Shown here piece after piece: positions 51,102-56,835 of a stretch of 64,000 bases of DNA. Position 1 is the first letter of the stretch, and each line of letters begins with the position of its first letter. This DNA comes from Bacteroidota bacterium (lineage in GTDB: Bacteria; Bacteroidota; Bacteroidia; NS11-12g; UBA955). Where the stretch lies: contig JAGXTF010000118.1 in NCBI GenBank assembly GCA_018333525.1, positions 310,001 to 374,000 of the forward strand. The letters are read 5' to 3'. The notes beneath the pieces were generated by a model. The model did no database searches, was not told the origin of the DNA, and was given only the letters and a program-made list of their open reading frames with translations. A program made the position numbers and the translations under genes.

Positions 51102-51408
51102 TTATTTTATTATTTGCAATTTCCCAGTTGATTTTTGCTTCCCGAAAACTACCTCGTTCAGGTATAGACCATTTTGCAAATCCAAGGAATTTCATAACCT
51201 CTTTCATCTAGTGGATGCGTTACATTCAGCATTTCTTTCCTTGTAAACCCGTAATATTTACAGTGCAATCGCCGATATTTTCTTTTGCTTTAATTTGAAA
51301 TTTATCCGATGCGGGATTTGGGAAGACCTCAAAGTGGAGTTCTTCAAATGTTTTCACCTTACTCGCATAAAAACTTTGTTCTCCTGTGCGTAAAAAAATG
51401 CAGTGCAC
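51102..51408 (-). pseudogene. Frameshifted remnant of a T9SS type A sorting domain
   Basis: Read across frames, the minus strand encodes a T9SS C-terminal domain. FEELHFEVFPNPASDKFQIKA and VNITGLQGK are in one frame, KEMLNVTHPLDERGYEIP in a second, and LDLQNGLYLNEVVFGKQKS, TGKLQIIK and a TAA stop (51102-51104) in a third. At least two frameshifts interrupt it. The rest of the secreted protein is missing or unrecognisable, though an open run continues upstream to about 51515. It is the decayed 3' end of a former T9SS substrate gene, next to thiamine pyrophosphokinase. Confidence 0.8.
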
Positions 51409-52125: not shown

Positions 52126-52887
52126 ATGAAAATCCTTACTTATAATGTCAATGGCATTCGTGCAGCAGCTTCCAAGGGGCTGTTTGATTTTCTGAAGACA
52201 GAATCACCGGATGTGGTTTGCCTGCAGGAAATTAAAGCCGAAAAAGACCAGGCCGATCTGGCAGCCATAGAAAATCTTGGATACCATCACTTTTGGTTTT
52301 CAGCACAAAAAAAAGGGTACAGCGGGGTTGCTGTTTTTTCTAAAATCAAACCCAATAATATTGTTTATGGCTGTGGGCATCCGGATTATGATTTTGAGGG
52401 CAGATGTATTCGTGTGGATTTTGATTCGTACAGTGTTCTTTCAGTGTACTTTCCGAGCGGAACCACAGGCGATGTGCGACAAGAAATTAAATACAAATTC
52501 CTGGATTATTTTTATGATTATGCCCATAATCTTTTAAAGGAATTACCGGGTCTTGTTATTTGCGGAGACTACAATATTTGTCACAAACCAATTGATATTC
52601 ACAACCCGGTGAGCAACAAAGATTCTTCCGGATTTTTACCCGAAGAACGTGCCTGGATGGACAAATGGTTTGGCAGCGGATTTGTAGATACATTTCGGCA
52701 ATTTAATCCCGACCCGGATTGGTATACCTGGTGGAGTTTTCGTGCAAATGCAAGAGCCAATAACAAAGGTTGGCGTATCGATTATATCAGCGTAACAGAA
52801 AACCTAAAAGACCAATTAAAAGCAGCTAAAATTTTGATGGATGCCAAGCATTCGGACCATTGCCCGATGTGGGTGGTAGTAGAGTAG
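52126..52887 (+). CDS. xth: Exodeoxyribonuclease III
   Basis: A 253-residue AP endonuclease/3'-5' exonuclease of the endonuclease-exonuclease-phosphatase family, acting in base excision repair. Motifs are KILTYNVNGIRAA, DVVCLQEIKAE, ICGDYNICHKPIDIHNP, RIDYISV and the C-terminal KHSDHCPMWVVVE. Its TAG stop codon lies in the first octamer repeat that marks the edge of the RHS island. Confidence 0.97.
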   Translation: MKILTYNVNGIRAAASKGLFDFLKTESPDVVCLQEIKAEKDQADLAAIENLGYHHFWFSAQKKGYSGVAVFSKIKPNNIVYGCGHPDYDFEGRCIRVDFDSYSVLSVYFPSGTTGDVRQEIKYKFLDYFYDYAHNLLKELPGLVICGDYNICHKPIDIHNPVSNKDSSGFLPEERAWMDKWFGSGFVDTFRQFNPDPDWYTWWSFRANARANNKGWRIDYISVTENLKDQLKAAKILMDAKHSDHCPMWVVVE

Positions 52888-52902
52888 AGCGTTAGAGCGT
52901 TA
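52887..52902 (+). repeat. Left boundary repeat of the RHS island (GAGCGTTA x2)
   Basis: Two tandem copies of GAGCGTTA begin in the xth stop codon, followed by a G-rich run. The same octamer occurs in inverted orientation at 56780-56835. Confidence 0.85.
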
Positions 52903-53024
52903 GGGGGAGGAGGGAGTCGGGACATTGGCGGAGAACTGCGGGATTTTAGGTAAAATAGCAGGCTTGTTTAATTTCAAAATTATGTACGAAAATTACTATC
53001 TTCGATATATAATTTTAATTCAGC

Positions 53025-54119
53025 ATGAGTTCTTATCCCTTCATAGCTTTCTATTTTGGACATTCGGATTACTATCCATTTGGGAGTGTAATCCAAAGTC
53101 GCTCCTGGGCAAGTCAGAGTTATAGATACGGGTTTAATTGTAAAGAGAAGGAGAGTGACGGTACAACAGATAACTATGATTTTGGGGCAAGGATATATGA
53201 CGGACGACTGGGAAAGTGGTTATCTACTGAACCATTAAAAAGTATTTATCCCAAATATTCAGCATATCAGTTTTCCATTAACAATCCAGTTTTCAATATT
53301 GATTGTGATGGTAATGTCATTAAACCGGCTACTGATGAGGCATACAAGGTAATCGAAAAAAGGTTAACTGATTTATTGGGAGGGGACAAAAAATTCGAGA
53401 AAGTATTTGAGTACAGTGCTGATAAGTTAAATGGATCTTTAAACATAAATGGTAACCCAGAATTTACTTTACATCTGTCAAATACGTTTAGAATTGCGTT
53501 AGGTGAGGATGGGACAACCTCTCCAGATTACTCTGATAAAGCAGTGAAAAAGGCATTGAGGAAAAACGGAATACATATAAAAAATGCTGATCGACAAATT
53601 CTCCGTTCATATTTGGCTATTGCAGGAGATGCAAATGTATTAGAAGCAGGATTCTTAAGTGAAAACACTACAATAAACAATGGTCGTCAGCAATCTGCAG
53701 TTGGATCTGCGCCAGTAAGTTCAACTCAACAACCAATTGGAGATGGTCTAAATTCAACAGTATTTGCCTTAGGTATTTGCGAAACAACCAATATACCAAA
53801 TCCGCTTGTTGACAATAATGGAAATGGCAGTATTCAAGATGAAACGGACGCAGCACTCGCTGCAACTAAAGTATGTAAGAATGGACATTTTAATGGTCTC
53901 CTCACTACATATGTCGGTGGTATCCGTACCGGGAATAGCACATCCGGAAATCTGCAACTTACTAATTCTAGTGGACGCATTTTGAGATTTACAGGGGTTG
54001 CAATTAACGAATCTTATACACCTGCTGGCTCTACAGCACCAGCAGATCGTAACTCTTTGCTTGACGCTGCAGTCATGAACAATGTAACATCTGTTACCGG
54101 AAGCGCTTTACCAAAATGA
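53025..54119 (+). CDS. Stand-alone RHS core tip with variable C-terminal domain (copy 1)
   Basis: A 364-residue protein that begins inside the conserved end of an RHS core: DYYPFGSVIQSRSW at residue 15, then YRYGFNCKEKESDGTTDNYDFGARIYDGRLGKWLSTEPL. About 270 residues of variable C-terminal domain follow, as in polymorphic toxins. The RHS barrel, signal peptide and secretion domain are all missing. The C-terminal part holds NPLVDNNGNGS, shared with the second tip. No catalytic motif was recognised. It overlaps the next gene by 4 nt, the position of an immunity gene. The start is supported by the equal 14-residue lead-in of copy 2. Confidence 0.85.
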   Translation: MSSYPFIAFYFGHSDYYPFGSVIQSRSWASQSYRYGFNCKEKESDGTTDNYDFGARIYDGRLGKWLSTEPLKSIYPKYSAYQFSINNPVFNIDCDGNVIKPATDEAYKVIEKRLTDLLGGDKKFEKVFEYSADKLNGSLNINGNPEFTLHLSNTFRIALGEDGTTSPDYSDKAVKKALRKNGIHIKNADRQILRSYLAIAGDANVLEAGFLSENTTINNGRQQSAVGSAPVSSTQQPIGDGLNSTVFALGICETTNIPNPLVDNNGNGSIQDETDAALAATKVCKNGHFNGLLTTYVGGIRTGNSTSGNLQLTNSSGRILRFTGVAINESYTPAGSTAPADRNSLLDAAVMNNVTSVTGSALPK

Positions 54120-54688
54120 AAACAATATTTCTTTTAACTTTATCACTAACTTTTTTAAATCACGAATTTGATATAGGTTGGAACACCAATTCAATTGTTC
54201 GAGACTCTTGTAAAATGCCTGATTCAATAACCCTGGATTGCACAAATGCATTTCCAATTGGCCCATCTGGCTTAGGAACTCATGTATTTAAGGTTACTCC
54301 AATTGGGATAAATGAATATGAGTTTCGGACTATAAATAACAAAAAACATGACACGATAGAATTTATTCTTCCAATAAATAAACAACAAATTTGTTTTTTA
54401 GAAATAAATCTTTGGCAATTAATGCGGGCACAAGAAAATTATAGAAGTATCAGAATAGATTATAGAAAGCGCAGAAATGCTATTAGGGAGGATAAGTTTA
54501 CTATTAGGTTGAAAACATATTCAAATAAACAAATTATAATCCGCGAAAAGAATAGGTTAAAATTTGAGGAGTTTATCGACTGGGATGGTCTATATGGGAA
54601 AGAACGCGATACTTTATTGGTATTCCGAAAGAAAAAAATTAAGGAAACATATATTTGGGTAAATAATGTATTTACAAGGTTGAAATAA
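54116..54688 (+). CDS. Hypothetical exported protein, putative immunity partner of RHS tip 1
   Basis: A 190-residue protein with a hydrophobic N-terminus (KTIFLLTLSLTFLNHEF) that could be a signal peptide. The rest is rich in Lys, Ile and Arg, with no recognised domain (for example INKQQICFLEINLWQLMRA). It starts in an ATGA overlap with the RHS tip gene, so the two are translated together. Immunity is inferred from position only. Base composition is more AT-rich than the core genes around it. Confidence 0.6.
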   Translation: MKTIFLLTLSLTFLNHEFDIGWNTNSIVRDSCKMPDSITLDCTNAFPIGPSGLGTHVFKVTPIGINEYEFRTINNKKHDTIEFILPINKQQICFLEINLWQLMRAQENYRSIRIDYRKRRNAIREDKFTIRLKTYSNKQIIIREKNRLKFEEFIDWDGLYGKERDTLLVFRKKKIKETYIWVNNVFTRLK

Positions 54689-54732
54689 ATATCGTTTTCT
54701 TTCACTATGCCTATAACTTTTAAGTTAAAATT

Positions 54733-54840
54733 CTAATTTTGAATGATCCGAAAAAAGGGGGAGCCTACACTGTGTGGTCTGAATGAATTGAACTCGTTTT
54801 TCCAGGCTTCTATCTTTTCCCTTGCATCATCAACAAGACG
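54733..54840 (-). pseudogene. IS3-family transposase C-terminal fragment
   Basis: A minus-strand run of 35 codons encodes RLVDDAREKIEAWKNEF, then NSFRPHS, before similarity ends and a stop follows. This is the hallmark end of the IS3-family OrfB (rve) transposase (DAREKIEAW...FRPHSSLG). An in-frame stop lies just upstream and no inverted repeats or OrfA remain. It sits exactly between the two convergent RHS modules. Confidence 0.75.
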
Positions 54841-54848
54841 AGGTTAGC

Positions 54849-55538
54849 CTAAATAATTTTAAATTTCTTATTATATTTATTTAAAATCCTTCTTTTATAC
54901 CCATTCTCCTTTAAATCATTGTAAAACAAAAAAAACAATTCAGCCGAATCTCTCCTATACTCAAATTTATCACTCATGAAATTAGTTGCATTTTTAAACG
55001 AGTATAGTTTTTGTAAAACTGGATGGTAAGCAAACTCTTCAAATTGATATAGGCCATAAATAGCTGAATCGTTGCGACTTGTATCAACATATATCCATTG
55101 TCGTAAAAAATAATACTTACCATAAACATCACTCTTCGCCCAAGAATCTATTACTATTTTATCCATAAATTTAGATTTTCTTACGGGGTAAATATGCCCA
55201 AAATACCAATTACAAATTGTATCCCTTCCTATTATTGCATTGGATCTAAATTCAACTTTTGGTTTTATAGTGTTCTCCACTGTAATTAATTCATCAATCT
55301 TCAATCTAAATGAGTCAGTATAAATAGTCTTCATCTGATCCCTTGAAATTAAAAATCCATGTTCGATTGTAACTAAATTCAACTCAGAATTATAAATTAA
55401 TTTATGCTTAAGAGCTTTTCTATCCTCATACAAATGAATATTTTTTACTCTACATCCGAAAAACAAAGCACTCATAGATAGTGTAAAAAAGGATATTACT
55501 AAATACTTCAATGTGATTTTATTTAAACATCTATTCAA
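54849..55538 (-). CDS. Hypothetical lipoprotein, putative immunity partner of RHS tip 2
   Basis: A 229-residue protein with an N-terminal membrane signal and lipobox-like Cys (FFTLSMSALFFGC). The mature part is rich in aromatic and charged residues with no recognised domain. It starts 9 nt after the stop codon of the second RHS tip. Like its counterpart on the other side it is predicted to leave the cytoplasm, which would fit protection in the periplasm or at the envelope. That role is inferred from position. Confidence 0.6.
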   Translation of the reverse strand: MNRCLNKITLKYLVISFFTLSMSALFFGCRVKNIHLYEDRKALKHKLIYNSELNLVTIEHGFLISRDQMKTIYTDSFRLKIDELITVENTIKPKVEFRSNAIIGRDTICNWYFGHIYPVRKSKFMDKIVIDSWAKSDVYGKYYFLRQWIYVDTSRNDSAIYGLYQFEEFAYHPVLQKLYSFKNATNFMSDKFEYRRDSAELFFLFYNDLKENGYKRRILNKYNKKFKII

Positions 55539-55547
55539 GGTATAATA

Positions 55548-56651
55548 CTAATTTCCGTCACACACATCTTGTTCGATACTCTGTTTATAGGCAGGAAGTT
55601 TAATAGTTTTACCGTTCACGACTGAATCCTTGGTCCCTCCATTTGCTCTTTCATTAGCGCTTGAGGAGGTAAGGTTAGCGTCTTCTAATTCACTTGGAGT
55701 CGGAAAAACATGCTTCCCACCATATTCGTTTTGTGTCGCTTTCACACTTTCAATTGATAATGATAGACCATATTTAGTATTTACTTTATTAATATTTGCC
55801 TGCAGTACTCCAGAACCTTGATCTGTTCCAGATAACATAATAGAAGCTGCAACTTCATCAGTTATATCTTGATTCATGCTCTTACTAGCATAATCCTTCA
55901 GTGCTGAAATGGCCTTCGCTAAGTCTTCTATTGGTATATCATGTCCAGTAGTGCCTTTGTCAATAGGGAAATATAATTCATGAATTATCACTGCAGCGAG
56001 ACTCAATTCGTTGTGTTCAAAAACTTGTTGATTTCCAGCATCATCAACCAATGGATTTGTAACTTGCTGTAATGGGGCCGCAAATGGATTAAATGTAATT
56101 TGATCAACTGTTGGACTTGAAGGAGGTAAGTGAGAACGCGCTTGACCATTTTTCAGATTTTCATTCATTGTCCAAAAGGGGTCTTCCTCAGGCCCTGCAT
56201 GAGCCATTGGATCAGTAACAATCCATAATATTAAATCCTTTTGTGGAGTAGTGTATTTAATCAATACATCAGAATAAACAAGTAACGCATCATTTTGAGT
56301 CATTTTGGTAATAATTGAATAATATGCAGATACTTTGAAGAAATTTGAAGGTAAAATATCTTTACCTTTTAAATCGCGCATTAAAATTACGGAATTCGCG
56401 CAATAATTATATGGCGATTGATATGGATATATGTGTGCTAAAGGATCAATACTTAGCCATCTTCCAACTCTAGCATCAAAAATTCTTGCTCCAAAATCAT
56501 AATTTTCAACTGTTCCTTCGCTTTCTTTTTCCTTTCCGTTAAGCCCATATCTATAAGCCAGGATTGCCCAGGAGCGATTTTGGATTACACTCCCAAATGG
56601 ATAGTAATCTGCATGGTTAAAATTGAAGTTTAAAAGGGCTTTAGAGTGCAT
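55548..56651 (-). CDS. Stand-alone RHS core tip with variable C-terminal domain (copy 2)
   Basis: A 367-residue protein starting at ATG 56651, with DYYPFGSVIQNRSW at residue 15 exactly as in copy 1, then YRYGLNGKEKESEGTVENYDFGARIFDARVGRWLSIDPLAH. The ~290-residue C-terminal domain is mostly different but shares NPLVDDAGN and a following Glu/Ala-rich helix (NELSLAAVIIHELYF). An HEL triplet is present but no HExxH zincin motif. There is no signal peptide or RHS barrel. It is followed by the lipoprotein gene. A TTG at 56696 is an alternative start. Confidence 0.83.
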   Translation of the reverse strand: MHSKALLNFNFNHADYYPFGSVIQNRSWAILAYRYGLNGKEKESEGTVENYDFGARIFDARVGRWLSIDPLAHIYPYQSPYNYCANSVILMRDLKGKDILPSNFFKVSAYYSIITKMTQNDALLVYSDVLIKYTTPQKDLILWIVTDPMAHAGPEEDPFWTMNENLKNGQARSHLPPSSPTVDQITFNPFAAPLQQVTNPLVDDAGNQQVFEHNELSLAAVIIHELYFPIDKGTTGHDIPIEDLAKAISALKDYASKSMNQDITDEVAASIMLSGTDQGSGVLQANINKVNTKYGLSLSIESVKATQNEYGGKHVFPTPSELEDANLTSSSANERANGGTKDSVVNGKTIKLPAYKQSIEQDVCDGN

Positions 56652-56779
56652 ATTGAAGTACAGATTAATGTCGAATATAGCCTTTTTGGGGCACAATTTT
56701 GAAATATTTTAAACCCACAGTCATACCCCAAAACTATACCTTTTCTCCTCCCATCAATGGACTCCTCGCTCTAATGTCC

Positions 56780-56835
56780 TAACGCTCTAACGCTCTCCCC
56801 CCTAACGCTCTAACGCTCTCCTCTCGCTAACGCTC
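56780..56835 (-). repeat. Right boundary repeat of the RHS island (TAACGCTC x5)
   Basis: Five copies of TAACGCTC (56780, 56788, 56803, 56811, 56828) are the inverse complement of the left-boundary octamer GAGCGTTA. The outermost copy reaches the TAG stop codon of the SIMPL-like gene, mirroring the left end. Confidence 0.85.

Follow-up and report, generated by a model that had tools for sequence, protein, structure and literature searches.

Stand-alone RHS tips in a Bacteroidota lineage carry a predicted promoter-start cap and linked genes for exported-type partners

The window analyzed here, a stretch of 64,000 nucleotides from contig JAGXTF010000118.1 of a Bacteroidota genome (assembly GCA_018333525.1), carries two stand-alone RHS tips. 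Tip 1 (53025-54119, + strand; ATG at 53025, stop at 54117-54119) encodes 364 aa, and tip 2 (56651-55548, - strand; ATG at 56651, stop at 55548-55550) encodes 367 aa counted from the ATG, an in-frame TTG also being present 15 codons upstream. In both tips, exactly 14 residues, Met included (ATG plus 13 codons), precede the motif DYYPFGSVIQ; the leader of tip 1 (53025..53066, + strand) reads MSSYPFIAFYFGHS and has no homology to the RHS barrel, and that of tip 2 (56610..56651, - strand) reads MHSKALLNFNFNHA. The leaders give way to RHS-associated cores (53067..53312, + strand, in tip 1 and 56364..56609, - strand, in tip 2) that score 43.4 and 44.1 bits, respectively, against TIGR03696 (Rhs_assc_core), above the curated cutoff of 32.5, which places both genes among RHS tips. 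Beyond the core lie the variable C-terminal domains, the presumed toxins (53313..54119, + strand, and 55548..56363, - strand). DNA identity between the tips is 78% from +42 to +180 relative to the ATG and is at chance level (27%) past +300, in agreement with an earlier note on this DNA, which had described a conserved core end followed by differing C termini. The cores differ at 40 of 84 third codon positions and at 41 of 168 first and second positions, a twofold rate. The open reading frame (ORF) coordinates bear out the same note's account of two stand-alone tips with equal starts, each linked to a gene for an exported-type protein, and, as it had also stated, no N-terminal RHS barrel was found within the window. 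A core remnant, a variable C terminus, and an adjacent small gene, with no barrel attached, together make up the arrangement of an orphan rhs-CT/immunity module.

Both adjacent genes are presumed to encode immunity proteins. Partner gene 1 (54116..54688, + strand; 190 aa) begins with an ATG that overlaps the TGA of tip 1 by 4 nt (ATGA), and its product has a signal-peptide-like hydrophobic N terminus; partner gene 2 (54849..55538, - strand; 229 aa) starts with TTG 9 nt past the stop codon of tip 2 and encodes a protein with the lipobox FFGC. The two-cassette block is edged by AACGCTCT-type repeats, on the left at 52886..52904, inverted relative to the right edge, and on the right at 56778..56821. 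Within the window, the AACGCTCT 16-mer is confined to these edges, and the genome has three more occurrences, on three other contigs; no tip core was found on those contigs, and we do not claim the repeats as ends of a mobile element. As a separate observation, a 60-aa ORF at 51226-51408 (- strand), standing free of any parent protein, was judged by eye to resemble a T9SS C-terminal sorting domain (FPNPASDKFQIKAKENIGDCTVNITGLQGKK).

Upstream of each tip lies a predicted promoter with its 5' untranslated region (52971..53024, + strand, for tip 1 and 56652..56705, - strand, for tip 2), and the two copies align without a gap. Ahead of tip 1, a -33-like TTTC (52972-52975) is followed after 21 nt by the -7-like box TATCTTCG (52997-53004) and, after a further 20 nt, by the ATG; ahead of tip 2, TTTC, 21 nt, TATATTCG (56672-56679), and 20 nt lead to the ATG in the same order. 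The window box, TAnnTTCG, has one mismatch (T to C) to TAHHTTTG, the -7 consensus of the phylum Bacteroidota (PMC6847099), and the conserved stretch resembles a Bacteroidota-type -33/-7 promoter with its -7 box exactly 20 nt ahead of the start codon; predicted promoter, start codon, and leader are together called the cap hereafter. In the 3.7-Mb genome, the promoter motif occurs exactly twice, both times ahead of these tips. From -60 to -1, the copies are 63% identical (random pairs from the window, 26 ± 6%), and identity falls to 39% from -130 to -61. The earlier note had argued that random truncation would not give matching ATG starts, and both the upstream identity and the recurrence of the same design across the family, described below, agree with it; what it overlooked was the promoter itself and the common descent behind the equal starts. 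The two copies descend from one capped ancestor, by duplication of one capped unit, and because one unit was duplicated, their equal starts do not in themselves represent two independent events.

The C-terminal domains yielded few relatives. When each was compared with 345 genomes of the class, the window itself was the sole match; a weak relative of the tip 2 domain (28% identity over 116 aa) is carried by a capped tip in genome G040, and none was found for tip 1. Searches of Pfam, PADLOC, PHROGs, and PDB sequences with the C-terminal domains returned nothing convincing, the PDB matches being to the core only, and core matches in plasmid and phage collections were distant only. No recognizable family or usable model was obtained for either domain, AlphaFold2 models (single-sequence and two-sequence) having reached mean pLDDT values of 32 and 28, and these models were dropped from fold searches. 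The toxicity of both domains is therefore presumed. Related C-terminal domains sit on full-length and solo genes of different genomes.

Cores of this kind are present in 21 of 70 genomes of the same GTDB family, and most matches are solo ORFs of 300 to 400 aa, with up to 54 per genome. Inspection of the DNA around 140 core matches revealed that, in solo tips of the family, a -7-like box and a start codon precede the core at a spacing typical of the lineage and that the leader, of 8 to 15 residues, is unlike the barrel; leaders differ between lineages, the start codon is GTG or TTG in some lineages, and base composition is G 8% and C 33% in the leaders and G 25% and C 13% in the core. The box TAnnTTYG stands ahead of 19 of 20 solo tips in genome G011, 32 of 36 in G040, and both in the window (expected from Markov sequences, about 1.8, 2.5, and 0.2, respectively) and ahead of 1 of 19 full-length genes, counts that are to be read with the relatedness of copies within one genome in mind and with the T/C alternative in the box having been picked after the sequences were viewed. 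A recognizable cap is not universal in the family, boxes being present ahead of 0 of 5 tips in G067 and partially in G006 and G008. A box combined with an in-frame start was seen for 55 of 75 solo tips of the family, 0 of 15 full-length genes of the family, and 4 of 79 tips in other Bacteroidota, the last from a set of 80 loci that are best matches rather than a random sample. Two of those four cases occur together in one genome of metagenomic origin. That genome (L168; Bacteroidetes bacterium RIFCSPLOWO2_12_FULL_35_15) lies outside the family, and its two solo tips share the same leader, MCVTLLIEAECRYNTFG, with a -7-like box at equal distance.

The design is clearest in G040, where 57 copies of the 19-nt promoter-ATG cap TCCCTACCTTCGCTTTATG were counted at up to two mismatches, 45 of them exact, and the reversed control pattern has 0 occurrences. 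On the contigs first chosen for tips, all 26 caps readable without masked bases stay open in frame into the tip, 24 of them reaching FGS 14 or 30 codons on and the other two via a longer variant; on four more contig stretches, chosen for caps, one cap is followed by a decayed tip and another, which has TTG in place of ATG, has no tip behind it. The box lies only 4 nt ahead of the ATG in this genome, a spacing that would yield leaderless mRNA, and over codons 2 to 8 of 14 distinct leaders pN/pS is 0.49. No full-length barrel was found in the G040 assembly, against about 50 capped tips (L068-L083). In a subset of its tips, a 48-nt in-frame insert between leader and core encodes a stretch like YTFGRLAKPQIYDLVS.

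We suggest, with a probability of roughly 0.55, that each tip and its partner form a capped, stand-alone cassette of RHS toxin and immunity genes, which is transcribed and translated mainly to keep an exported immunity protein on, with the tip stored in a swappable state. What can be read directly from the DNA is the cap with its fixed geometry, the open frame, and the core, together with a closely linked partner that bears predicted export signals, and the presence of the same cap ahead of dozens of tips in relatives suggests that the tips are in use and are not leftover scrap. The short cap, in which a promoter of Bacteroidota type is joined to a start codon and a leader of 8 to 15 residues, would substitute for the barrel-coding part exactly at the start of the core and so create a small operon, with the stored tip first and the exported partner second. 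As an active promoter, it would keep immunity on; the tip would be translated in the cytoplasm and, having no export signal, would remain there, where it may do no harm if it has an envelope target. Translation of the tip would carry ribosomes onto the partner, whose start overlaps, and the partner would act as an immunity protein in the envelope, the compartment to which full-length RHS toxins exported by Sec would gain access. The main benefit would be that the cell is constantly immune to many RHS toxins, and the tip would serve as a store, available for transfer to a barrel gene of high core identity by homologous recombination between the cores. For the lineage as a whole, we propose more tentatively, and at slightly less than even odds, that orphan RHS tips have become a large expressed class by means of a standard cap at the barrel junction, with up to 50 or more pairs per genome providing always-on immunity and being exchangeable by recombination between barrel-linked and cap-linked cores.

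A promoter and start of its own would suit a tip that belongs to an intracellular toxin-antitoxin or selfish module, in which the cytoplasmic tip poisons the cell without its partner and loss of the cassette is punished, as has been proposed for Salmonella orphan rhs genes. There, the tips of main and orphan rhs genes are expressed from internal P2 promoters and act as type II toxin-antitoxin modules (PMC7043789); the window tips resemble them in the predicted expression of tip with partner apart from the barrel, from a separate predicted promoter and start, and their intact frames would also suit such a module. The Salmonella P2 promoter lies inside sequence common to main and orphan genes (PMC7043789), whereas here the predicted promoter and the start belong to a cap that only solo tips carry. 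The partner genes are what make this explanation unlikely in our judgment. In the family, an ORF of at least 70 aa lies directly behind 88 of 92 solo tips, its start no more than 20 nt from the tip stop in 83, and 77 of the 88 partners have an exported-like N terminus according to a simple hydropathy rule, which is crude and does not tell signal peptides from membrane anchors; the export signals that the earlier note had pointed out on the two partners are thus matched by exported-like N termini on most partners of the family. The same rule classed as exported-like 52 of 80 partners of solo tips and 32 of 63 partners of full-length genes in other Bacteroidota and 15 of 35 ORFs of the window. 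The antitoxin of an RHS type II module works in the cytoplasm through toxin binding, but partners that mostly bear signal peptides, lipoboxes, or membrane anchors would not directly neutralize a cytoplasmic toxin, and their export signals speak against cytoplasmic action.

The tips might instead be silent cassettes from which a full-length RHS gene acquires a replacement tip, with the upstream box as a by-product, an explanation that we regard as distinctly improbable. Within a genome, full-length and solo cores are up to 85 to 100% identical, the identity spans the first core codons to the toxin domain, and no homology upstream of the core was found between full-length and solo genes of one genome; because homology begins exactly at the core, the cap takes the barrel's place, and such boundaries, together with the related C-terminal domains on both kinds of gene, would suit a donor role. 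So would two contigs of G011 (C17 and C18; L049 and L050) whose sequences coincide over exactly 141 nt at each end, the shared ends being one barrel end and one solo start with its cap, each joined to two different tip arrays; this sharing amounts to an assembly branch, reflecting either duplicated loci or the coexistence of alternative arrangements within the population. No barrel similar enough to be of use is known for the window tips. The earlier note had advised finding a full-length gene in the genome and aligning it with the tips, and one full-length RHS-type ORF was indeed found, on another contig (C78; 3,529 aa, with a signal-peptide-like N terminus and a weak DUF6443 match), but its product is just 39% identical in amino acids to tip 1 over the core, and recombination of the window tips into it looks unlikely because that identity is too low for ordinary homologous exchange; cores similar enough for exchange with a full-length gene do occur in sister genomes. 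A position downstream of the main rhs gene, which is typical of orphan modules but not strictly defining, is likewise absent here, the barrel being on another contig, and solo tips do lie near a barrel in the sister genomes G006, G017, and G025. Moreover, silent solo tips of other Bacteroidota mostly have neither start nor box, and a silent store would need neither 57 near-identical promoter-ATG caps nor a kept frame. The earlier note had offered silent cassettes and an expressed barrel-less class side by side; the conserved promoter-start cap, in window and family alike, favors the expressed class and weakens the silent option, since the cap has the look of a unit made to be transcribed and translated.

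That the tips are active barrel-less mini-toxins, freed by lysis, vesicles, or an unknown exporter, seems very improbable, for although the genes are complete with starts and their copy number is high in some genomes, the tips have no signal peptide or delivery domain, and the leaders are short and vary between lineages. Least credible of all is that they are decaying remnants whose starts match merely from recent duplication: common descent of the window copies does extend across the promoter, but the design recurs family-wide in several genera, broken frames are few, and third positions of the core diverge at twice the rate of the others.

Expressed cassettes of the kind that we favor differ in part from orphan modules described elsewhere. 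Enterobacterial orphan rhs-CT/rhsI and cdiA-CT/cdiI pairs usually have no translation initiation signals (Poole 2011, PMC3150448; Koskiniemi 2014, PMC3967940), a trait that is typical of orphans but not strict, whereas an ATG and a predicted promoter are present in the window. The two groups have in common a detached tip, a conserved core remnant, a variable toxin domain, and an adjacent immunity-like gene, and the ability of enterobacterial orphans to recombine with the main gene is a further likeness (PMC3150448, PMC3967940); unlike them, window-type tips have a dedicated predicted promoter, a start codon, and a leader that are absent from the full-length gene, and their partners are mostly of exported type. 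The stand-alone cassettes of polymorphic toxin systems, thought to be stored modules that replace the C terminus of a full-length toxin, are similar (Zhang 2012, PMC3482391), and the passages of that work that concern them describe no conserved promoter-start cap. A search that covered the open-access literature, with subscription papers mostly outside its scope, found no description of a promoter-start cap confined to solo tips.

Orphan toxin tips that look incapable of expression pose the question of how and why bacteria retain them, and one lineage offers a direct and testable answer in its sequence, namely, a dedicated predicted promoter-start unit that solo tips have and full-length genes lack. 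If it operates as predicted, many stored tips and exported immunity proteins would be made simultaneously, which would alter the reading of RHS repertoires in environmental Bacteroidota. The window's own genome also holds tips of another form: on contigs C75 and C101 (L017 and L018), ORFs of 471 and 474 aa contain uncapped tips that retain 75 to 114 barrel residues, and the L017 tip occurs in identical form at the ends of both contigs.
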